A stretch of 64,000 bases of DNA from [Ruminococcus] torques ATCC 27756 (GTDB taxonomy: Bacteria; Bacillota; Clostridia; Lachnospirales; Lachnospiraceae), in assembly GCF_000153925.1 (NCBI RefSeq), contig NZ_DS264358.1, positions 124,001-188,000 of the forward strand, written 5' to 3'. This document shows positions 8,918-47,431 of the stretch, one piece after another. The notes beneath the pieces were generated by a model. The model saw only the letters and a list, made by a program, of their open reading frames with translations. It did not search any database and had not been told where the DNA came from. The position numbers were made by a program, and so were the translations under genes. Numbering within the stretch: position 1 is the first letter of the stretch; each line of letters opens with the position of its first letter.

Positions 8918-9617
8918 TTTCCTCTTTCCTCCTGTTTTCTGTAATGTGTACAATTTTTCCGTCTATAATCTCCAATACCCGGTCTGCATATTCCGCCTGA
9001 CTTCGATCATGCGTGACCATGACAAGCGTTCTTTTCTGCTCTCTTACGAGTCTTTGCATCAGGCGCATCACATCTTGAGACGTATGTGAATCAAGCGCTC
9101 CTGTAGGTTCATCCGCAAAAATAATCTTCGGATCGTTCACAAGCGCCCTTGCCACGCTTACTCTTTGCTGCTGTCCTCCTGATAACTGGTTCGGCAGATG
9201 TTTTTTATGTTTTTCCAAGCTCACCAGATCCAGCATTCTGTCGGCTTTTTTTATTCGTTCTTTTCTCGGCTCTCCGCGAAATGTAAGCGGAAGCGCCACA
9301 TTTTCCAGTGCATTCATCGTTCCCATCAGATGAAACGACTGAAATATAAAACCAACGTTTTCTCCTCTGAACTTTACAAGTTCATTTTCTTTCATCTGCT
9401 CGATATGCTTCCCCGCTACGATCACTTCCCCGCGAGTCGGTTTTTCCAGTCCGGCAAGCATATTCAAAAGAGTCGATTTTCCGGAACCGGACGTTCCGAC
9501 GATCGCACAAAATTCTCCCTCGTACACTGAAAAACTAACGCCGTCCAATGCCCGGACGACCGAATCGCCGACACGATACAGTTTATACAGGTTTTTCACA
9601 CTGATAATCTCCCTCAC
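8904..9617 (-). CDS. ABC transporter ATP-binding protein (LolD/MacB type)
   Basis: Walker A (GTSGSGKST), Q-loop, signature LSGGQQQRVSVARAL, Walker B (IIFADEPTGALD) and H-loop (MVTHD) are all intact. I chose the GTG at 9617 because AAGGAGG lies 5 nt upstream. In-frame starts at 9647 (ATG) and 9680 also exist but have weaker sites. The protein belongs to the family that powers MacB/LolCDE-like permeases, in agreement with the downstream permease. It is the first gene of the three-gene operon. Confidence 0.9.
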   Translation of the reverse strand: MREIISVKNLYKLYRVGDSVVRALDGVSFSVYEGEFCAIVGTSGSGKSTLLNMLAGLEKPTRGEVIVAGKHIEQMKENELVKFRGENVGFIFQSFHLMGTMNALENVALPLTFRGEPRKERIKKADRMLDLVSLEKHKKHLPNQLSGGQQQRVSVARALVNDPKIIFADEPTGALDSHTSQDVMRLMQRLVREQKRTLVMVTHDRSQAEYADRVLEIIDGKIVHITENRRKEENERA

Positions 9618-9841
9618 TGTCTCCTCCTTTTTGCTTTCTTTACTCATTCTGTCTGTTTGTTTTATCTCCTGTCTCAACACATACGAATCTTCGGCAGTCA
9701 GATCTGCCTTTTTACGAAACAGCGATGCATTGTTATTTGTATCGTATCATATGTTTTGTTAGATTTCGCTATGTATTTTATGAATAATTTCTTAATATCC
9801 GAATCTCATCTGCGCAAAACTTCTGTTTTCCCCCTATAACA

Positions 9842-9875
9842 AAAAAGGCCGCAAAACATCTGCAGCCTTTCTGCT
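9842..9875 (-). terminator. terminator after ung
   Basis: On the minus strand AAAGGCTGC and GCGGCCTTT form a stem with an AGATGTTTT loop followed by TTTTTTG. It closes the hisH-hisF-ung unit. Confidence 0.75.
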
Positions 9876-9882
9876 TTCTTTT

Positions 9883-10551
9883 CTATTCGATCTGCCAGTC
9901 AATAGGCTCTTCGCCTTGCGACTCTAAAAACTCATTCGTTTTACTAAACGGTCTGCTCCCGAAAAATCCACGATATGCCGACAGCGGACTCGGGTGCGGC
10001 GCTGTCAATATCAGATGCTTCGGATTGTTCAGCATCGCCTTTTTTCTCTGCGCCGGAGCGCCCCATAAAATAAATACGATCGGACGGTCCTGACCGTTTA
10101 ACGCCATGATCGCCGCATCCGTAAATTCTTCCCAGCCGATGCCCCTGTGGGAATTTGCCTGATGAGCACGAACAGTCAGCACAGTATTCAACATGAGAAC
10201 TCCCTGATTTGCCCATTTTGTAAGGCATCCGTGATCAGGGATCGTACACCCGAGATCATCATGAAGCTCTTTATAAATGTTGACAAGAGACGGCGGCACA
10301 TCCACTCCCTTTTTCACTGAAAAGCAAAGCCCGTGCGCCTGTCCGTTATTGTGATAAGGGTCTTGTCCGAGTATCACTACTTTCACCTTTTTCAGCGGAG
10401 TCAAATGAAATGCATTAAATATATCCTCCGCCGGCGGGAAAATCAATCTTGTTCTATATTCCTCGTTTACCGTCTGAAATAATGTTCTGTAATATGGCTT
10501 TGAAAATTCACCTTTCAGCGCTTCATACCAGTCTCCGCTTATACCTGACAT
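9883..10551 (-). CDS. ung: uracil-DNA glycosylase
   Basis: A family-1 UDG of about 222 aa that removes uracil from DNA in base-excision repair. The catalytic water-activating motif GQDPYH, the uracil-binding region and the C-terminal HPSPLS loop are intact. I chose ATG 10551 (MSGISGDWYEAL) because GAGGGTGAT precedes it and the length then matches Ung (E. coli 229 aa). A GTG at 10647 that overlaps the hisF stop would add 32 poorly conserved residues. It lies downstream of hisF. Confidence 0.93.
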   Translation of the reverse strand: MSGISGDWYEALKGEFSKPYYRTLFQTVNEEYRTRLIFPPAEDIFNAFHLTPLKKVKVVILGQDPYHNNGQAHGLCFSVKKGVDVPPSLVNIYKELHDDLGCTIPDHGCLTKWANQGVLMLNTVLTVRAHQANSHRGIGWEEFTDAAIMALNGQDRPIVFILWGAPAQRKKAMLNNPKHLILTAPHPSPLSAYRGFFGSRPFSKTNEFLESQGEEPIDWQIE

Positions 10552-24441: not shown

Positions 24442-24497
24442 AACATCTTATCCGTCAAGATCTCGGATAAATCCGGATTTTGGCTCATTACCGTAAC

Positions 24498-24540
24498 AAA
24501 AAAGCCGTGACCTCTGATTACTCAAAGGTTACGGCTTTTG
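24498..24540 (+). terminator. terminator of the GH95 gene
   Basis: AAAAGCCGTGACCT pairs with AGGTTACGGCTTTT across a 12-nt loop. It is near-symmetric and could also end transcription from the minus-strand micro-operon on its other side. Confidence 0.8.
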
Positions 24541-24559
24541 TAGTGCGGATGATTTTCTT

Positions 24560-24679
24560 TCAGCCCAATGCTATAAATTGAATCTGTCCGTACAGATCTC
24601 CGGCTTCATCGTGTAGGTTTGCGGTTTCTTCCACGATATACTCCTTATAAAGTACTTTTATTTTTTCAGGTATCTTCAT
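24560..24679 (-). pseudogene. 39-aa remnant resembling the start of a small phage/ImmA-like peptidase-family protein
   Basis: ATG 24679 is preceded by an excellent site (AAGAAAGGAGGGGAAAG), then 39 residues from MKIPEKIKVLYKEYIVEE to a stop after YGQIQFIALG. The LYGQI segment followed by loss of the rest resembles the N-terminal part of ImmA/IrrE-like small proteins often found in mobile elements, where the metal-binding HExxH comes later. The short end suggests truncation by mutation. It follows two other small genes on the same strand. Confidence 0.45.
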
Positions 24680-26322: not shown

Positions 26323-26805
26323 TCAATCCAAGTATTTCTGATTGAAATGAGCCTTTCCCTCCTGATCAATCTCCATAATCATATAGCTTCCCTTTCTGCC
26401 TTCCTGCCTCGGATATGCCAAACTGCCCGGATTCAGCACAGTGATTCCATCCTTCTGTTCAAAATACGGCTTATGTGTATGACCAAACATCACGATATCG
26501 ACTTTTCGAGCTGCGCCTTCCTCTCTTATATACTCTGAATCCAAAGACACATAATACGGATGTCCGTGAGTAATAAAGGCTTTATACCCACCTATATCGA
26601 TTTCCTCTTCCCGCGGCAAATCCGAGAAAAAATCATTGTTTCCTCTTACCATATGCTTCTCACATTCCACAACCGAATTAATATAGCTTTCTCCGCCTTC
26701 TATATCACCTAAATGAATAAAAAGATCGATCTTTCCTTCTTTTTCAAGAACACGGTCTAATCCTGTATGTCTGCCGTGTGTATCGCTGACTATCAGTACT
26801 TTCAT
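26323..26805 (-). CDS. YfcE/MJ0936-family metallophosphoesterase
   Basis: This 160-aa calcineurin-like phosphodiesterase has the metal ligands of the family: SDTHG near the N-terminus, HLGDIEG, GNND and FGHTHKP. Family members hydrolyse phosphodiester model substrates with Mn2+; the natural substrate is not known. Its start overlaps the stop of rdgB by 4 nt, and it is the last gene of a tight three-gene operon. Confidence 0.92.
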   Translation of the reverse strand: MKVLIVSDTHGRHTGLDRVLEKEGKIDLFIHLGDIEGGESYINSVVECEKHMVRGNNDFFSDLPREEEIDIGGYKAFITHGHPYYVSLDSEYIREEGAARKVDIVMFGHTHKPYFEQKDGITVLNPGSLAYPRQEGRKGSYMIMEIDQEGKAHFNQKYLD

Positions 26806-37230: not shown

Positions 37231-38712
37231 GAGAATGTGAAACTTTTTCTGTAAATAATGTTTTAGAAGGTCTTCTATGGTAAAATATTTTATCATAAGG
37301 AGGCCTTTTATTATGGCAAGAGAAAAGAAACCTGTACACAAAGTACAAATGACAGAAGGAAAACGTAACATCATTCACCAGCTCTTGAAAGAATACGATA
37401 TCCAATCAGCAGAAGATATCCAGGATGCGCTGAAAGATCTTCTTGGTGGAACCATCAAAGAGATGATGGAAGCGGAAATGGATGACCACTTGGGATATGA
37501 AAAATCACAACGTTCTGATAGCGGTGATTATCGCAATGGTTATAAGCGAAAAAGAGTGAATAGTCGTTATGGTTCTATGGAGATTGAAGTTCCACAAGAC
37601 AGAAAATCAACTTTTGAACCTCAAGTAGTAAAGAAACGTCAGAAAGACATTTCAGATATCGATCAGAAGATTATTTCTATGTATGCAAAAGGTATGACAA
37701 CCCGGCAGATTTCAGAAACAATCGAAGATATTTATGGTTTTGAAACATCCGAAGGTTTTATATCAGATGTTACAGACAAGATTCTCCCACAAATTGAAGA
37801 CTGGCAGAATCGGCCATTAGATGAAGTTTATCCAATCCTGTATATTGATGCGATTCACTATTCCGTCCGTGATAATGGAGTGATCCGGAAGCTTGCTGCG
37901 TATGTCATTCTTGGGATTAATGCGGAAGGTAAGAAAGAAGTGCTTACTATCAGTATTGGAGAAAATGAAAGTTCCAAGTATTGGCTCTCCGTCTTAAACG
38001 AATTAAAAAATCGTGGTGTAAAAGATATCCTGATCATTTGTGCAGATGGACTCACAGGTATCAAAGAAGCGATTGCGGCAGCATTTCCTAAGACAGAATA
38101 TCAAAGATGTATCGTTCATCAAGTGCGAAATACCTTGAAATATGTTCCAGATAAAGACAGAAAAGCATTTGCCACAGATTTGAAAACGATATATCAGGCA
38201 GCGGATGAAAAGAAAGCTTTGGCAGCTTTGGATCGGGTAATGGAAAAATGGACTGCAAAATATCCGAATTCCATGAAACGCTGGAAGGATAACTGGGATG
38301 CTATTTCCCCAATCTTCAAGTTTTCAGCAGCGGTTAGAAAGGTCATTTATACAACAAATGCCATTGAATCTCTGAATTCCACTTATCGGAAGCTGAACCG
38401 TCAGAGAAGCGTCTTTCCAAGCGATACAGCCCTTTTAAAAGCCCTTTATCTGGCTACCTTTGAAGCTACAAAAAAATGGACTGCAACAATCCGGAACTGG
38501 GCTCAGGTTTATGGAGAGTTAAGTATCATGTATGAAGGTCGCTTGCCAGAGTAATAAAAAAAGCAGAAAAACAGGCGGATTACCCGCCTGCTGTTGACAT
38601 GCAATTTTGTAACTGTTATATATAAAGCAAGGGCGAAAAGCTGATTTTGTTTAAGCCTATCGCCCATTCTTATCATAGAAGATCATATTTACAGACTTTT
38701 CTTCATAGTCTC
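37231..38712 (+). mobile_element. complete IS256-family insertion sequence
   Basis: This 1,482-bp element encloses one transposase gene. Its ends are imperfect inverted repeats: GAGAATGTGAA at the left and, reverse-complemented, GAGACTATGAA at the right, with further matches TCTGTAAATA and TCTTCTATG inside. It is bounded by a perfect 8-bp direct repeat AATATCGC (37223-37230 and 38713-38720), the target duplication expected for IS256 relatives. The right flank shows that it inserted into the arm of a terminator hairpin. Confidence 0.93.
37313..38554 (+). CDS. IS256-family (mutator-type) transposase
   Basis: The 413-aa transposase starts at ATG 37313 after AAGGAGG. The DDE triad is visible: Asp in ILYIDAIHYSV (about residue 182), Asp in LIICADGLTG (about residue 245) and Glu in TTNAIESLNS (about residue 350). 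The protein is full length without frameshift, so the element may be active. A hairpin (CAGGCGG/CCGCCTG) just after the stop probably ends its transcript. Confidence 0.96.
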   Translation: MAREKKPVHKVQMTEGKRNIIHQLLKEYDIQSAEDIQDALKDLLGGTIKEMMEAEMDDHLGYEKSQRSDSGDYRNGYKRKRVNSRYGSMEIEVPQDRKSTFEPQVVKKRQKDISDIDQKIISMYAKGMTTRQISETIEDIYGFETSEGFISDVTDKILPQIEDWQNRPLDEVYPILYIDAIHYSVRDNGVIRKLAAYVILGINAEGKKEVLTISIGENESSKYWLSVLNELKNRGVKDILIICADGLTGIKEAIAAAFPKTEYQRCIVHQVRNTLKYVPDKDRKAFATDLKTIYQAADEKKALAALDRVMEKWTAKYPNSMKRWKDNWDAISPIFKFSAAVRKVIYTTNAIESLNSTYRKLNRQRSVFPSDTALLKALYLATFEATKKWTATIRNWAQVYGELSIMYEGRLPE

Positions 38713-40349: not shown

Positions 40350-41639
40350 CTAATGCATAATGATCGGAGCTGTTTTTTCCATCGCTACTTTGCACAAAGT
40401 AACTGTTCCGCCTTCTTCTATCCGGCTTCCTCCCGCTTCCACTACGCAGTCTTTATTTAACACAAGCGTCCATTTCGGATCATCACTGGGAAATACAACT
40501 GCAAGCGTTCCATACTGAAGACATTCTTCCGGTTCATAATGCTCTTTACCTTCCGGTGTTTCAATATCGATTCCGCCGTTTTCTCCTGTTCCTACTTCCA
40601 ACTTATAATTTTCTCCCCGGTCTTCCGGCATCCATGTACCATAAGCCACATTTGCCACATAATAATAAGATACCGCTTCATTTCTGTCTCCGTAAGTCGC
40701 CACAAACTGATGCACCTGATCATCTTCCGGCGACTCATATGTAAGAGCACACACATCGTTTTCAAGCCACTGTACTTTCACATCATCTTTCACAGTAAAC
40801 GGAAATACATCAGACTGCGCTCCGAACAGCAGCCCCCGCTGCCGATAAAAAACCGCTCTTCCGTTTTCATCAATTTTCAGACACATTGTATTTGAAAAAT
40901 CAGGTGCAAGATCAACGATTTCCCTCTGCTTTAGAAAACAAAATGGACAAACCTCAATTCCTGCAGCTAATAAAATCGCCGTTACTGCAATAACAGATTT
41001 TCTTTTCCATATCGGGCGGAGTTTTTCAATGCACATGCCGCCGGCCCCAAAAAGGAAAACTGCCGCCGCGTTTATCACATATGGAGTTACATTCCTTATA
41101 TAGATCAATCCAAGTTCTCTTCCCTGAGTCAGAGTCCAAATCTGCACTATGATCAACCCCACCGCAGACAAGATTAGCAGACAGCCAAAAACATCTTTCC
41201 ATGTGATCCGAATCGTTTCCGCCTTTCTTTCGGCTCGCTCCAACACAATTTCCAAAAGCTTCTTATCCTCATCCGATACGGCAGTTTCCGCTCTTTTCTC
41301 TTGTTCAATCTGTTCTCCCATTAAAATTTCATCAACTGTCACTCCAAGCGCCTTTCCAAGTTCAGGAAGGATTCCGATATCCGGCATTCCCTGACTTGTC
41401 TCCCATTTTGACACAGCCTTATTCGTAACCCCAAGCAGCTCTGCCATTTCCTTCTGAGTCATTCCGCGTTCCTTTCTCTTTCGCGCAATAAATTCTCCTG
41501 TCTTATTTCCTCCTTTATTTTTTACTCTTTTCTCCGGTCTGTTTTCTATTACATTTTCCGATGTATTATCCTGTCCGCTTTTTCTCCCATAGTCAACTTC
41601 TTTTTCATTTCCTGCTTCACTGTTTTTTCTTTCTTGCAT
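40350..41639 (-). CDS. XRE-family regulator with membrane-spanning C-terminal domain
   Basis: This 429-aa protein starts after a strong GGAAGGAGG site. After a charged linker of about 45 residues it has an XRE helix-turn-helix (about 48-103, with TQKEMAELLGVTNKAVSKWE), then three membrane helices (about 150-250) and an extracytoplasmic domain. Membrane-bound XRE proteins of this kind in Firmicutes are thought to couple envelope or peptide signals to local gene expression. The 38763 gene lies 81 nt downstream and is a possible partner. Confidence 0.8.
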   Translation of the reverse strand: MQERKNSEAGNEKEVDYGRKSGQDNTSENVIENRPEKRVKNKGGNKTGEFIARKRKERGMTQKEMAELLGVTNKAVSKWETSQGMPDIGILPELGKALGVTVDEILMGEQIEQEKRAETAVSDEDKKLLEIVLERAERKAETIRITWKDVFGCLLILSAVGLIIVQIWTLTQGRELGLIYIRNVTPYVINAAAVFLFGAGGMCIEKLRPIWKRKSVIAVTAILLAAGIEVCPFCFLKQREIVDLAPDFSNTMCLKIDENGRAVFYRQRGLLFGAQSDVFPFTVKDDVKVQWLENDVCALTYESPEDDQVHQFVATYGDRNEAVSYYYVANVAYGTWMPEDRGENYKLEVGTGENGGIDIETPEGKEHYEPEECLQYGTLAVVFPSDDPKWTLVLNKDCVVEAGGSRIEEGGTVTLCKVAMEKTAPIIMH

Positions 41640-44007: not shown

Positions 44008-45204
44008 TTATCTTGTTTTATCGACTATAATCATCTTTTTATTGACAATCTCAATCGATTTTTCAAATAAATCTTCGTAAAGACCTATTAAATTTTTTCT
44101 TTGTTCTTTGGATAGAAGTTTATAAAAACCACCCATCCAGCTTCGAAACATATTTTCTACATTTTCATACGAAATTTCCTCATTCTTCACTTTTACAGCA
44201 AGCCTTTTGAGTTTTCTACGCATCGCAGTAACTCTCTTTGGATTGATTCGTTTGATTACTTTACCGGAATCGGTCAAACTATATTTGATTTGCAGAAATT
44301 TGTATGTACTGGAAATCTTCACAATTCGAGTTTTCTTCCTATTGATATGGATTCCATATTCTTCTGCAATCTGATGAATATGATCCAGCAAATCTAACAA
44401 TTCTTCTTTGCTCGGGTTCATGATATACCAATCATCCATGTATCTTCCATAGAATTTCTGACTTCGCACATACTTGACATAATTATCGATCCGATATGGA
44501 TAATAAATTCCAATAACCTGAGATAGCTGGTCGCCAATATTAACCGATTTCTCCATCCATTTTTCACCAGTCAACTTTGACTCTGGAATATTTCTATACT
44601 CCAACTTATTGAAAGTATCTGTCATACATGTGGCATATTCTTCGTCTGTCATGTAAGAAACATCGATTTTAAACCCGTCAAAAATTTGCGTTAATAACCA
44701 ATCAATAAATTCATCGTCATCAAATAGCCTCAACAATTCTCGTTTGGCAATTTCATGAATGATATTGTCATAAAACTTAGAAAAGTCTCCAAACAATATC
44801 CAACCTTCATTCCCATACAAACGATAATATTTACGAAGATGAACTTCGAATCTATCTCGCTGATGAGAGATTCCTCTTCCTTTTATCGAAGCACAATTAT
44901 CATAAATAATATGCTTTTTCACTTCAGGAAGTAAAATCTCATCGCATAAAACATGTCGAATAATACGATCTCTAATTTGAATACTTGTTATAGGTCTTAC
45001 TCGACCTCTCTCAAACAGCGTGAATTCTTGTGTCGGTCCATTTTGAAGTGTCCGATTTATCAAATCATCTTGAATAGAAAAGATATACCTCAGAAAATTC
45101 ATCATGAATTTCTGTGTTGTTTCTTTCCATTTGCTGGTTTTGACAGAGGCCTTATAAGCCCTATACAAATTGTTGGCGTCACAGACAATCTCCTCATAGT
45201 TCAT
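44008..45204 (-). CDS. DGR reverse transcriptase
   Basis: The 398-aa enzyme is a retroelement polymerase with the catalytic GRYMDDWYI motif (domain 5) and the DGR-type domain 4 motif IGDQLSQV, in which I/LGxxxSQ replaces the usual QGxxxSP. This motif distinguishes DGR enzymes from group II intron and retron RTs. It copies the template-repeat RNA with errors at adenines, and the cDNA replaces the variable repeat. The template repeat lies 110 nt upstream of its start, and Avd before that, the usual DGR order. No frameshift or active-site loss is seen. Confidence 0.96.
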   Translation of the reverse strand: MNYEEIVCDANNLYRAYKASVKTSKWKETTQKFMMNFLRYIFSIQDDLINRTLQNGPTQEFTLFERGRVRPITSIQIRDRIIRHVLCDEILLPEVKKHIIYDNCASIKGRGISHQRDRFEVHLRKYYRLYGNEGWILFGDFSKFYDNIIHEIAKRELLRLFDDDEFIDWLLTQIFDGFKIDVSYMTDEEYATCMTDTFNKLEYRNIPESKLTGEKWMEKSVNIGDQLSQVIGIYYPYRIDNYVKYVRSQKFYGRYMDDWYIMNPSKEELLDLLDHIHQIAEEYGIHINRKKTRIVKISSTYKFLQIKYSLTDSGKVIKRINPKRVTAMRRKLKRLAVKVKNEEISYENVENMFRSWMGGFYKLLSKEQRKNLIGLYEDLFEKSIEIVNKKMIIVDKTR

Positions 45205-45313
45205 AAATCATTCACCGTGTTAGCAATACTTACCGTAGTAAATTGCGTCCGGCTTTGCTATTTATCCCTTCGGAAAGGACAATGTCTCCTTCTCTGTTGG
45301 TCAGGCAGAGAAT
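45205..45313 (-). ncRNA. DGR template RNA spacer between template repeat and RT
   Basis: The 109-nt stretch following the template repeat has no reading frame and contains short inverted segments (for example CCTTTCCGAAGGG). In studied DGRs the RNA flanking the template repeat on the RT side is needed for cDNA priming with Avd and RT; that this spacer does so here is inference. Confidence 0.5.
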
Positions 45314-45402
45314 CCGGACGAACCCCAAAAGAGTACGAAGCGTTGTTGTAGTTCGTATTGCCATTGTTGTTCACATTAGCGAAATTAGCCGAAGAAACGA
45401 CG
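45314..45402 (-). repeat. DGR template repeat (TR)
   Basis: This 89-bp non-coding repeat is homologous over its full length, without gaps, to 46477-46565 at the end of the variable-protein gene. Eighteen positions differ: fifteen are adenines in the TR (coding strand) changed to G, T or C in the variable copy, and three are TR thymines within the 8 nt next to the homing end. Read in the frame of the variable protein the TR is rich in AAC/AAT codons, as expected for sites meant to be mutagenised. Confidence 0.97.
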
Positions 45403-45414
45403 CATAATTAGACA

Positions 45415-45900
45415 TTACCCTTTTAACTGTGACCTGATCCGGTTATCTCGTTGACGCCACTTTTTTATCAATCCGATTTCTCGGTCGATAGCTTTAACAT
45501 AGCGACTATAGAGATTAACATCCACTTCGAATATCTCAACGATTCGTTGTAGCTCTTTTAAGAGTTGCTCGCAGTTTACTATGGCTGTATTCTGATAATC
45601 TCTTCTTTGCTCATATTCATGCAGCGTGGTCGGATATATAGAATTTGCCGCTCGAATATTGCTTGTTAGCATGGAGGCTAACTGATCTATTCGATTTTTG
45701 TAATTCAGCATCAAATATCTATATCTTGAAAAATCTTCTGTAGTATCCTTTCCATAAGCATATTTCATTCGAACAAGCCGATCCAAATCTTTTACTCCGA
45801 AGCTACGCTGCATCAACTCGATTAACATATCATGCAATTCAACGGAATATGTAATCGCCTCAAATTTGGATTCTGTCCGGTCGCTCACTAGGACACTCAT
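45415..45900 (-). CDS. avd: DGR accessory variability determinant (Avd)
   Basis: The 161-aa, strongly basic, all-helical protein fits the Avd four-helix-bundle family; its first helix reads SKFEAITYSVELHDMLIELM. Avd forms a pentamer that binds RT and the template RNA and is required for mutagenic retrohoming. The stop codon lies only 12 nt from the template repeat. It overlaps the xkdX stop by 4 nt (ATGA), so it is expressed with the tail operon. It is longer than the BPP-1 protein (128 aa). Confidence 0.88.
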   Translation of the reverse strand: MSVLVSDRTESKFEAITYSVELHDMLIELMQRSFGVKDLDRLVRMKYAYGKDTTEDFSRYRYLMLNYKNRIDQLASMLTSNIRAANSIYPTTLHEYEQRRDYQNTAIVNCEQLLKELQRIVEIFEVDVNLYSRYVKAIDREIGLIKKWRQRDNRIRSQLKG

Positions 45901-46040
45901 GCGTAATCCTTATCCGTAATCTCTTTAAATTCTTCTTCCGTGATCCAATTCATTTTCACGGCATTTCGGACACGCATCTCGTTCCACATTCCCATGTTAT
46001 AATAGCGTTTTACTTTGTCAAAATTTTTACTACGTCTCAT
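45897..46040 (-). CDS. xkdX: XkdX-family phage protein
   Basis: This 47-aa protein was too small for ordinary gene calling but is preceded by AAGGAGGAG. It matches the XkdX pattern: YYNMGMWNEMRVRNAVKM followed by WITEEEFKEITDKDYA. XkdX-type proteins are encoded near the tail tip/baseplate genes in PBSX-like and many siphovirus genomes; their biochemical role is unknown. Its stop overlaps the avd start. Confidence 0.88.
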   Translation of the reverse strand: MRRSKNFDKVKRYYNMGMWNEMRVRNAVKMNWITEEEFKEITDKDYA

Positions 46041-46054
46041 GTCAGCTCTCCTCC

Positions 46055-46375
46055 TTACAGTTCAATTTCAGACATCATGGCTATATATTCAATATCCGAC
46101 TGTAATTTAATAAAAGCCAATTCATTTTCTGGAACATCACGAAGTATAAACCAATACTCCTCTCCCATCTTTGTGATCTGTACCAGTTCCATATTCGTAT
46201 GGACATCGTCTTTTTCGCCGTCATTGATTGTGACATTTAGGCAGTTCCCATCAAAAATGGTCTCATCAATTTCCACAGGCGAAATAAAGTTGTTTCCGTT
46301 CAGTTTCAGATTATCAATCACTGTCCCATCAGCCAGAGTAATCTTATAAATCTTATCATCCATTTTGACATTCAC
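46055..46375 (-). CDS. conserved small phage protein between variable protein and XkdX
   Basis: A 106-aa acidic beta-rich protein (MDDKIYKITLADGTVIDNLKLN at the start, with a downstream ATG four codons in). Similar small proteins often sit in this place in clostridial phage tail-tip operons. No recognised domain; it could be a chaperone for the variable protein or a tail component, but neither is shown. Confidence 0.7.
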   Translation of the reverse strand: MNVKMDDKIYKITLADGTVIDNLKLNGNNFISPVEIDETIFDGNCLNVTINDGEKDDVHTNMELVQITKMGEEYWFILRDVPENELAFIKLQSDIEYIAMMSEIEL

Positions 46376-46434
46376 CTTTCATTCATTTTTTCTTTTTATA
46401 GCACAGATAGCTGTCACCTGCGTACTGTTTTTTC

Positions 46435-46449
46435 GGGGCACAGGGCCCC
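46435..46449 (-). other. GC-rich hairpin downstream of the variable repeat
   Basis: GGGGC-ACAGG-GCCCC lies 11 nt beyond the stop of the variable-protein gene and 28 nt from the variable repeat. It has no T-run on the minus strand, so it is not a normal terminator. DGRs often carry a GC-rich hairpin close to the variable repeat that promotes target recognition; assignment here is by position and composition. Confidence 0.45.
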
Positions 46450-46459
46450 TGGATTAAAA

Positions 46460-47431
46460 CTAACCAATAGGGAAGACCGGACGAACCCCACTAGAGAGCG
46501 AAGCGTAGCTGCAGTCCGTATCGCCACCGCCGAGCACAACAGCGAAATAAGCCGAAGAAACGACGTCTCTGAGCCAGAAAGTCGCACGGTTTGAAATGAA
46601 TTTCGGAACCACAGTAAATAAAGCAAGCTGCGTCTTTCCAACTGTATATCGATTCGGAACAATTTTTCCATCTCCAGCCGGTGCGAAAACGTGACTTCCA
46701 TACATCATAATCTCATTAGGAAGTTCTAAAGTAGAATCAAACCACGCCCCTCCGGAGGGATATCCTTCCGTAACGGCATTTGTCAGATGTTCACGATGAG
46801 AAAGAATCAGATTACCAAAAGCACTTGCTGCTAATGTTTTCGCCTGATCAAGATTTTTCTTATACATTTCAGAACCCACGTAACCACCAGTAGTGATGTT
46901 CGTCGCGTTCATCTGTGCATTGTAAAGTGGTTTGTCCGGCATAATGACCAAATGAGGTTTTGTAAACGCGGTATCTCCACAATCATACCAGTAATCAAAA
47001 TCCACAATCCTCCACGTATAGCTTCCGATAATCCAATAATCCCCTAAGAAAAAGCCCTTAAAGGTACCATTTTTAATATTGGTCTTCTGTTCTTCTGTAA
47101 CAACACTTCCAAGGTTCTTCCCTCTGTAAATCATTCGGCGCTGTTCCTTCGGCACAAAAGAATCCAGAATAGCAAACAATGCATCATTGGCACCAATTGC
47201 TTTATTTCCGCCCGAAGTTCCAACTAAAAACTTGTCATTTGTAGACAAAGTCTTAATTTGATCAAGCTCGGACAGATTAACCCCCGAAATAAAATCTTTT
47301 GAATTCATGAGACCAATCAGAGCCTTTGCGAAATCACTTACTAAGATCGTTTTGGTCCCGTTGTTACCATCAATCAAGACAATATTGCTCTCATCCAACT
47401 GACGAACTTTCTCATAATCTGTAATTTTCAT
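46460..47431 (-). CDS. DGR-diversified tail-tip protein (variable protein)
   Basis: This 323-aa protein has an N-terminal domain (about 1-90) that probably attaches it to the tail, a glycine/serine linker region, and a C-terminal C-type-lectin/formylglycine-generating-enzyme-like domain (about 110-323) with WIIGSYTWRIVDFDYWYD and the ending SSGVRPVFPIG typical of DGR targets. The last about 30 residues are encoded by the variable repeat. About 11 residues differ from the template-encoded version, mostly in place of Asn (for example Tyr, Val, Leu, Gly, Asp, Ser). By analogy with phage BPP-1 Mtd it should bind host surface receptors. Confidence 0.93.
   Translation of the reverse strand: MKITDYEKVRQLDESNIVLIDGNNGTKTILVSDFAKALIGLMNSKDFISGVNLSELDQIKTLSTNDKFLVGTSGGNKAIGANDALFAILDSFVPKEQRRMIYRGKNLGSVVTEEQKTNIKNGTFKGFFLGDYWIIGSYTWRIVDFDYWYDCGDTAFTKPHLVIMPDKPLYNAQMNATNITTGGYVGSEMYKKNLDQAKTLAASAFGNLILSHREHLTNAVTEGYPSGGAWFDSTLELPNEIMMYGSHVFAPAGDGKIVPNRYTVGKTQLALFTVVPKFISNRATFWLRDVVSSAYFAVVLGGGDTDCSYASLSSGVRPVFPIG
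46477..46565 (-). repeat. DGR variable repeat (VR)
   Basis: The recipient repeat, 89 bp, ending 15 bp before the stop codon of the tail-tip gene. The end next to the stop (46477-46490) is identical to the template, TGGGGTTCGTCCGG, and serves as the likely initiation-of-homing element. Of 21 template adenines in the core, 15 are changed here (nine A to G, five A to T, one A to C). Confidence 0.96.

Follow-up and report, generated by a model that had tools for sequence, protein, structure and literature searches.

The 64,000-nt stretch of the [Ruminococcus] torques ATCC 27756 genome analysed here, referred to as the window, carries on its minus strand a complete diversity-generating retroelement (DGR) that is located in the prophage tail module of this Lachnospiraceae genome. 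Very probably, the element is an active-type phage DGR that serves two targets and has a template repeat (TR) that is occasionally overwritten by a mutagenised copy. Sequence comparison points to this reading through the parts of the unit, adenine-specific differences from the TR at both targets, the hairpins present, and changes of the template that are confined to adenines (A) when near-identical relatives are compared.

The order of the parts on the minus strand is the gene for a variable tail-module protein (VP1) that contains the local variable repeat (VR1), a GC hairpin, two small genes, avd, the TR and the gene for the reverse transcriptase (RT). A preliminary description of this DNA had placed these parts, the two small genes apart, in one unit; its coordinates proved to be exact, and are now accompanied by matches to RT and Avd families. 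The RT (44008-45204, minus strand) has 398 aa, matches RVT_1 (E = 3e-17) and phrog_1423 (E = 3e-61), and is the single RVT_1 match at E ≤ 0.001 in the whole genome. Its translation contains both of the motifs reported earlier, YMDDW and IGDQLSQ, the latter of which we take to be a mark of DGR RTs. The accessory variability determinant (Avd; 45415-45900, minus strand) is 161 aa long; its PHROG match, at E = 3e-19, is phrog_3206 ('Avd protein of DGR'), whereas a Pfam search gave no match. The TR (45314-45402, minus strand) is 89 nt long with 21 adenines on the coding strand, as compared to 24 in the consensus of relatives, and VR1 (46477-46565, minus strand), also 89 nt, is located within the 323-aa VP1 (46460-47431, minus strand), in which the variable repeat occupies codons 289-319.

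Adenine-specific variation at the local target

TR and VR1 align without gaps and with 18 differences, and our recount is identical to the count made previously. Fifteen of them affect TR adenines, of which there are 21 (A>G in 9 cases, A>T in 5 and A>C in 1), and three affect thymines, of which there are 27; none is at the 22 C and 19 G residues. For comparison, RT relatives were collected from IMG/VR (52 loci) and from GTDB genomes (44 loci). Loci are labelled with L numbers and genomes with G numbers, with WIN designating the window locus and G000 the window's genome. Of the IMG/VR loci, 49 of 52 were used (the truncated L086, L087 and L089 were omitted, and L048, L083 and L084 had no usable pair), as were 37 of the 44 genome loci (L118, L120 and L132-L136 were omitted, and L097 and L123 had no usable pair). 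TR/VR1 pairs were scored in 82 of the 86 loci with a scan result, of which 75 are distinct. With four altered templates (L053, L059, L072 and L126, described below) excluded from the count, TR adenines hold 1073 of the 1109 TR/VR1 differences in 72 distinct pairs, a share that is somewhat generous as the scan penalised A mismatches less. The alignment of TR and VR in related prophages that the preliminary description had called for reveals A-focused differences. The 1701 template adenines in these 72 pairs are represented in VR1 by 628 A, 528 G, 313 T and 232 C.

VR1s from close relatives can also be compared directly with each other, without the scan bias, and 282 of the 305 differences so identified are in A columns (20 pairs, with members shared between pairs). 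An invariant VR, and non-adenine changes as frequent as those at adenines, had been named as outcomes that would argue against a DGR here, and the comparison of relatives speaks against such outcomes. Near-identical RT genes are mostly paired with very different VR1s; the VR1s of WIN and L038, for example, differ at 19 sites, 19 of 19 in A columns, and 2 of the 20 pairs differ at a single site only. Past activity of this DGR, as originally claimed, is supported and, with VR1 hypervariable beside near-identical RT genes, the relatives point also to recent activity. The pattern of TR/VR1 differences at adenines across these loci is not one of chance, the variability of VR1 between relatives is the behaviour expected of an active DGR, and RT-dependent mutagenic retrohoming would be the process behind such comparative variation.

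A second, remote target

A search of the genome with the TR identified a third copy of the repeat (VR2) on contig C35, within the gene for a DUF6273 protein, designated VP2. The description of the unit as a complete DGR in a tail module was therefore correct in its parts and incomplete as a reading, as this remote second variable repeat, outside the window, had been missed. With a 201-nt TR query, no repeat other than TR, VR1 and VR2 was found in the genome at E ≤ 0.001, and a scan of the genome for the exact pattern of VR end plus hairpin returned VR1 and VR2 only. VP2 has 283 aa and matches PF19789 (E = 6e-8) and phrog_21980 (E = 2e-111). Over 85 nt, VR2 differs from TR at 13 positions, all 13 at adenines, and it has the same hairpin as VR1. 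For six prophages, VR2 could be set against the TR that the prophage itself carries, and adenines account for 89 of the 90 differences (one comparison covers 58 of the 89 nt). Three further comparisons used the TR of another phage, with 17 of 17 (L090), 15 of 15 over 53 nt (L091) and 17 of 20 (L017) differences at A.

In a family sample of 299 genomes, including the window's, VP2 is present in 6 (E ≤ 1e-10) and the RT in 10 (E ≤ 1e-60). All 6 of the VP2-bearing genomes also have the RT, although that of G149 and G136 is fragmentary or broken. The distance between VP2 and the RT is 49.8 kb in Hungatella hathewayi DSM 13479 (complete chromosome; G046 by coordinates), 50.5 kb in contig G247:C10 of Cuneatibacter caecimuris and 49.7 kb in the IMG/VR contig 2585427815_000007. 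Within the genus, 1 of 58 genomes has a TR match, namely the window's own genome.

The VR2 hairpin is in frame and translated, as ESRGPVPR, in the window phage and in L016, L017, L090, L091 and L092, and VP2 ends before the hairpin in L018, L021 and Acutalibacter phage Fontainebleau. In these six VP2s (L005:8715-9566 in the window phage), the translated hairpin is followed by a long-helix tail, and so a cis DNA element has been captured inside a reading frame. The VP2 gene sits between two DUF6353 genes and at a distance from those for tail and head proteins, in surroundings that, by position only, would be an early region. A functional link of the flanking DUF6353 genes (L005:7358-8137 and 9566-10336) to VP2 is possible. 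In one prophage (G247:C5:181934-184422; L021, L023) there are two VP2-like genes ~2 kb apart, and the VR2 comparisons above give no separate score for L023, the second of the two. The VP2 of Hungatella hathewayi at L018:1237-2022 has an additional N-terminal stretch with a YCRADV motif, and a similar motif, YCQNDV, is present downstream of the hairpin in L017.

Changes of the template at adenines

The preliminary description counted the three differences at TR thymines correctly and left them unexplained. They are located at 45335, 45329 and 45328 (within 45328-45335, minus strand), corresponding to 0-based coding-strand indices 67, 73 and 74 of the TR, and form the altered part of the template, with T in the window and A in relatives. 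The nearest relative, L038, with an RT gene 99.08% identical in DNA sequence, has AAC..AAT where the window TR has TAC..TTT. Because AAC..AAT is present not only in L038 but also in the TRs of L039, L093-L096 and L098, the window template is, by this comparison, one that lost three adenines (A to T) in its own lineage. At the altered codons, VR1 has CTC..AGT, as expected from the old AAC..AAT template, and VR2 has TAC..TTT, matching the new template, with VR2 and TR being identical over the last 29 nt.

Such changes are not confined to the window. There are 28 pairs of relatives with RT identities of at least 95%, of which 19 have at least 98%. In these 19 pairs, the TR is identical in 12 and different in 7, and all 51 of the TR differences in the latter are on consensus-A columns, which constitute 24 of the 89 columns. 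As the 7 differing pairs share members, they stand for about six events, and the chance that all six, taken as one draw each, would be on A columns is 4e-4. In a tree of RT genes (83 rows, reduced to 71 distinct ones by the removal of L084 and 11 duplicates), A-only bursts of TR change are present on short branches leading to L053 (14 of 14 changes), L072 (10 of 10), WIN (3 of 3) and L110 (3 of 3), and on longer branches 18 of 19 (L059) and 20 of 22 (L126) TR changes are at A. The template of L053 has 14 changes relative to that of a relative with an RT gene 99.92% identical, and the template of L072 has 12 relative to relatives with RT genes 99.24-100% identical. On the short branches, the altered tracts fall within indices 67-74 or extend into them; these indices represent the last two mutable codons, located at the 3′ (homing) end. 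In L126, the 89-nt template retains 3 adenines beside an RT match that spans residues 1-395, possibly a burnt-out DGR.

Several observations argue against the template being rewritten in this manner. Of the 9 pairs with RT identities of 95-98%, 4 have non-A TR differences, either also or only, and many ordinary non-A TR changes are located on the long branches. Over the whole tree the excess at A is modest, with 111 of 303 TR changes being from A when A constitutes 26% of the TR letters; in the flanking sequences, the tally of changes starting from A is 229 of 614 upstream (A = 37%) and 69 of 303 downstream (A = 33%). Adenines in the 5′ region of the template change singly in other clades, recurrently at the 5′ codon, and the TR of L127 is altered at two adenines (67 and 68) with the last mutable codon (73-74) intact. 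The whole-template changes (L053, L059, L072 and L126) are all from metagenome contigs or a metagenome-assembled genome (MAG), and the window alone offers few changes (3). The support is comparative. There is also no A-only TR change in 4 close pairs of hankyphage relatives, for which TR was recovered in 12 of 21 loci; for nd4-type relatives, TR was recovered in 4 of 44 loci, with no close pair. The hankyphage and nd4 sample is too small to call template rewriting special to the DGR family of the window. Two pattern scans of IMG/VR for the TR 3′ flank returned almost no additional contigs.

Origin of the template changes

We infer that the template is written by cDNA that homes back to the TR, rather than by recombination from a VR into the TR. 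The most serious competitor is that homologous gene conversion changed the template, with a VR as donor (VR2, for instance, carries the same TACTCTTTT), without participation of the RT in that step and with the same product. This is a real possibility, if clearly the lesser one. Recombination between 89-nt repeats is plausible and the 29-nt identity of VR2 and TR is consistent with it, but this match is also expected if VR2 was written after the template had changed. The polarity of the short-branch tracts, at or reaching the 3′ end, fits homing more than general conversion, and the whole-altered templates are unlike the adjacent VR1 (10-18 differences), although VR1 may since have been overwritten.

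Ordinary point mutation, with A sites being neutral and changes at non-A sites purged since they are copied into the targets, is an unlikely explanation. Consistent with it, A sites vary in the VRs anyway, and there are single A changes in several clades. However, mutation plus selection is implausible as the source of 12-14 TR changes beside RT genes that are 99.2-100% identical (L053, L072), and for such bursts it is refuted. For the window, at the divergence of the pair, at least three changes in the 24 A columns have P ~0.001 (simple binomial), which argues against point mutation, whereas at least three in all 89 columns have P ~0.05.

Still less likely is an assembly artefact, in which reads from a VR were assembled into the TR locus. 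TR and VR are 80% identical, the whole-template changes are from metagenomes or a MAG and, in L110 and L108, the TR ends in a 3′-edge run of 30 and 28 nt, respectively, that is also present in VR1, so that an argument based on edges fails there. In the four whole changes and the window, however, TR and VR1 share exactly between 5 and 16 nt at the edges, and 21 nt at one junction, and k-mer chimeras are unlikely in these five cases because the shared edges are mostly too short. In addition, two genomes with different VRs (L108, L109) carry the same altered TR; judged by record names, L108, L109 and L111 may be from cultured strains.

Hairpins and the proposed mechanism

Of the 75 distinct loci, 72 have a GC stem of at least 5 bp in the 60 nt that follow VR1, and only 1 has such a stem following the TR. 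In the window, the hairpin GGGGC-CCTGT-GCCCC is located downstream of VR1 (46435-46449, minus strand; DNA fold -5.8 kcal/mol, z -2.5), and the 3′ flank of the TR holds instead a different inverted repeat, ATTCTCTG..CAGAGAAGGAG, that is directly 3′ of the TR (45286-45313, minus strand), opens the TR-RT spacer and is unlike the VR hairpin. Hairpins are also present downstream of VR2 and of both VRs in phage Fontainebleau. At their 3′ ends, TR and VR1 are identical for 14 nt past the last difference and then diverge. As described in PMC3240598, direction in the DGR of the Bordetella phage BPP-1 is set by a 21-bp element with 5 TR/VR mismatches, and Guo et al. found that the BPP-1 hairpin is required, yet with residual activity in its absence. 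Because the window TR and VR1 share their last 14 nt, with only the sequence downstream being different, direction in the window family would depend mainly on the hairpin and would leak, resulting in occasional entry of cDNA into the TR.

In the mechanism proposed, RT and Avd, presumably acting as in BPP-1, would reverse-transcribe the TR transcript, incorporating random bases into the cDNA at adenines. The cDNA would then replace the repeat at targets marked by the common 3′ GGGGTTCGTCCGG end plus the GC hairpin, these being VR1 in the adjacent lectin-fold VP1 and VR2 in the DUF6273 protein VP2, which the same prophage encodes at a distance of ~50 kb. Now and then, a mutagenised copy would be written back into the TR, with the 3′ homing end being involved on the short branches. 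One such event in the window lineage would have converted AAC..AAT to TAC..TTT, changing three template adenines to T, with VR1 retaining bases there that derive from the old template and VR2 matching the new one.

A more far-reaching proposal, for which we consider the case evenly balanced, is that the template in this DGR family is a rewritable store. Mutagenised cDNA would home back with the 3′ end first, and each such event would remove mutable adenines for good, fix the residue in all later copies and so spend mutability. Whole-altered templates, with 3-10 adenines, would then be burnt-out, and intact templates would be kept by selection for evolvability.

Prophage structure and neighbouring genes

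Within the window, the prophage extends from 42379 to 64000 (minus strand), with genes for a holin, XkdX, tape measure and other phage proteins, and it continues to the contig end and on C35. The left edge (42379) was placed where homology to a related prophage starts. The prophage is probably one element of ~59 kb, split here by an insertion sequence (IS) rearrangement or by the assembly. A prophage contig that is 96-99% identical has the end of contig C26 directly next to the C35 piece (20268 and 20260), the two overlapping by ~9 nt. An IS with a DUF772/DDE transposase (C35:89430-91060; transposase L010:521-1978) forms the end of the C35 piece, and this IS, at the prophage joint, occurs in the genome in 3 full copies plus another 3 as fragments. 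The outer C35 prophage edge (L005:3355-3454, ~73.35-73.45 kb) has exactly 100 consecutive N, probably a scaffold gap, and the host flank there may not be the true neighbour. No common core longer than 10 nt, as an indication of attachment sites, was found between the two prophage edges.

A trans arrangement, with VR2 belonging to a second mobile element in the cell, is very improbable: VP2 is on another contig of a draft genome, and on a piece flanked on both sides by host-like genes, but a related prophage contig joins the C26 end to the C35 piece, with a multi-copy IS at the joint and the 100-N run at the other edge, and for the phage family this explanation is refuted by the colinear relative. 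Trans targeting between two mobile elements was our first reading of the C35 copy, and was ruled out by this colinearity and the multi-copy IS.

Between VP1 and avd, there is a gene for a 47-aa XkdX-type small phage protein (45897-46040, minus strand; PF09693, E = 1e-17) and, between this gene and VP1, a gene with a GTG start that encodes a 106-aa small protein (46055-46375, minus strand) for which no match was found in Pfam and PHROG at E ≤ 0.01. Near the prophage edge, a 425-aa ORF at window positions 37277-38554 resembles, by eye only, a mutator-family transposase. On C35, a second prophage-like region, as read from ORFs, begins at ~106.3 kb (L010:17348 onward, L011) and has a long serine-recombinase-like gene together with an SSB-like and a terminase-like gene.

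The variable proteins

A C-type-lectin fold had been suggested for the 323-aa VP1, and is supported by a predicted structure, with a mean pLDDT of 84.7 over the whole protein, and by VIA-align. Residues 113-323, modelled with good confidence, align to 9qa6 with Z 11.7 and an rmsd of 2.6 over 161 aligned positions, and the further VIA-align rows are mostly C-type lectins with Z of 3-5. Among the VP1 matches in BFVD, some carry the name 'Receptor Binding Protein' and others 'DUF6273 domain-containing protein'. A VP1 profile search of the PDB found no sequence match at E ≤ 1, and Foldseek against the PDB found no match at E ≤ 0.001 for either VP1 or VP2. VP1 is likely an adhesin. The VP2 model is weak (pLDDT 62.9) and does not resolve the fold; VP2 may bind a variable ligand.

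Implications

DGRs are described as one-way copiers with a constant master copy. If the master copy can be altered at its mutable letters, then a DGR can lose or fix its diversifying capacity, and selection for evolvability would be measurable as the retention of template adenines. Published DGR filters (PMC3521204, PMC4372165) set a minimum of 10 TR adenines, or allow no more than 2 non-adenine mismatches per 100 bp, and the template changes documented here suggest that some DGRs set aside as degenerate, based on non-adenine differences, may be elements with edited templates. The remote target indicates that surveys confined to the vicinity of the RT miss targets, a limit that is also named by Roux et al. 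(PMC8144416). A variable protein that is encoded far from the tail genes needs an explanation other than tail receptor binding.

Comparison with known DGRs

The target of the DGR in Bordetella phage BPP-1 (mtd, avd, brt) has a C-type-lectin fold, and the window DGR resembles this system in having a lectin-fold tail target, an RT, Avd and TR, A-specific VR differences and a hairpin just downstream of the VR. The BPP-1 DGR has been rebuilt on plasmids in E. coli (PMC12875486). The DGR of hankyphage (Bacteroides phage p00) is likewise a phage DGR with a nearby TR/VR pair but, unlike the window family, has the four close pairs with no A-only template change noted above.

Complete phage DGRs and phage DGRs with two targets are already known (for two targets, PMC10743442 and PMC11792537). 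In phages nd4 and nd12 (tentaclins), one TR feeds two different targets, as in the window phage, but their two targets are described as belonging to one DGR cassette (PMC10743442), whereas here the second is ~50 kb away. Acutalibacter phage Fontainebleau (ON453893) also has a TR beside the RT, a VR1 in a tail-side gene, a hairpin after both VRs and a VR2 in a VP2 homologue, which is encoded there directly after DNA polymerase I. Its RT is 43.5% identical to the window RT over 80% of the query and its VP2 ends before the hairpin, whereas the hairpin of the window phage is translated. Faecalibacterium phage Lelie (PP479942) and prophage CP11 have two DUF6273 targets (PMC11792537). When mapped here, Lelie has a TR at 24484-24605 and a VR at 26513-26634 that differs from it at 17 sites, all of them A; a remote VR at 40451-40551 in orf58 (L137), ~16 kb from the TR, has 15 of 16 differences at A. 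In contrast to these similarities, the Lelie RT is only ~25% identical to the window RT, and Lelie was not found by a VP2 tblastn search at E ≤ 1e-5. The remote second target was considered as a new feature and this was dropped, as the same arrangement is mapped in Lelie and two DUF6273 targets are in print (PMC11792537). The ~50-kb distance, the in-frame hairpin and the recurrence within the window family are details and not a new kind of DGR.

Template self-rewriting was not found in any of the papers listed by our search, which is weak evidence for novelty as bioRxiv preprints and most subscription papers were outside the search. In PMC10907252, the TR is said to remain unaltered. The one-way flow of information from an unaltered template, as in the BPP-1 model, is not what is observed here, given the A-only TR changes between relatives. 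The window DGR differs from BPP-1 also in its TR and VR1 3′ ends, which are identical for 14 nt and then divergent, as compared to the 21-bp element with 5 mismatches in BPP-1 (PMC3240598), and in having two targets, one of them remote, with templates in its family that change at adenines only.

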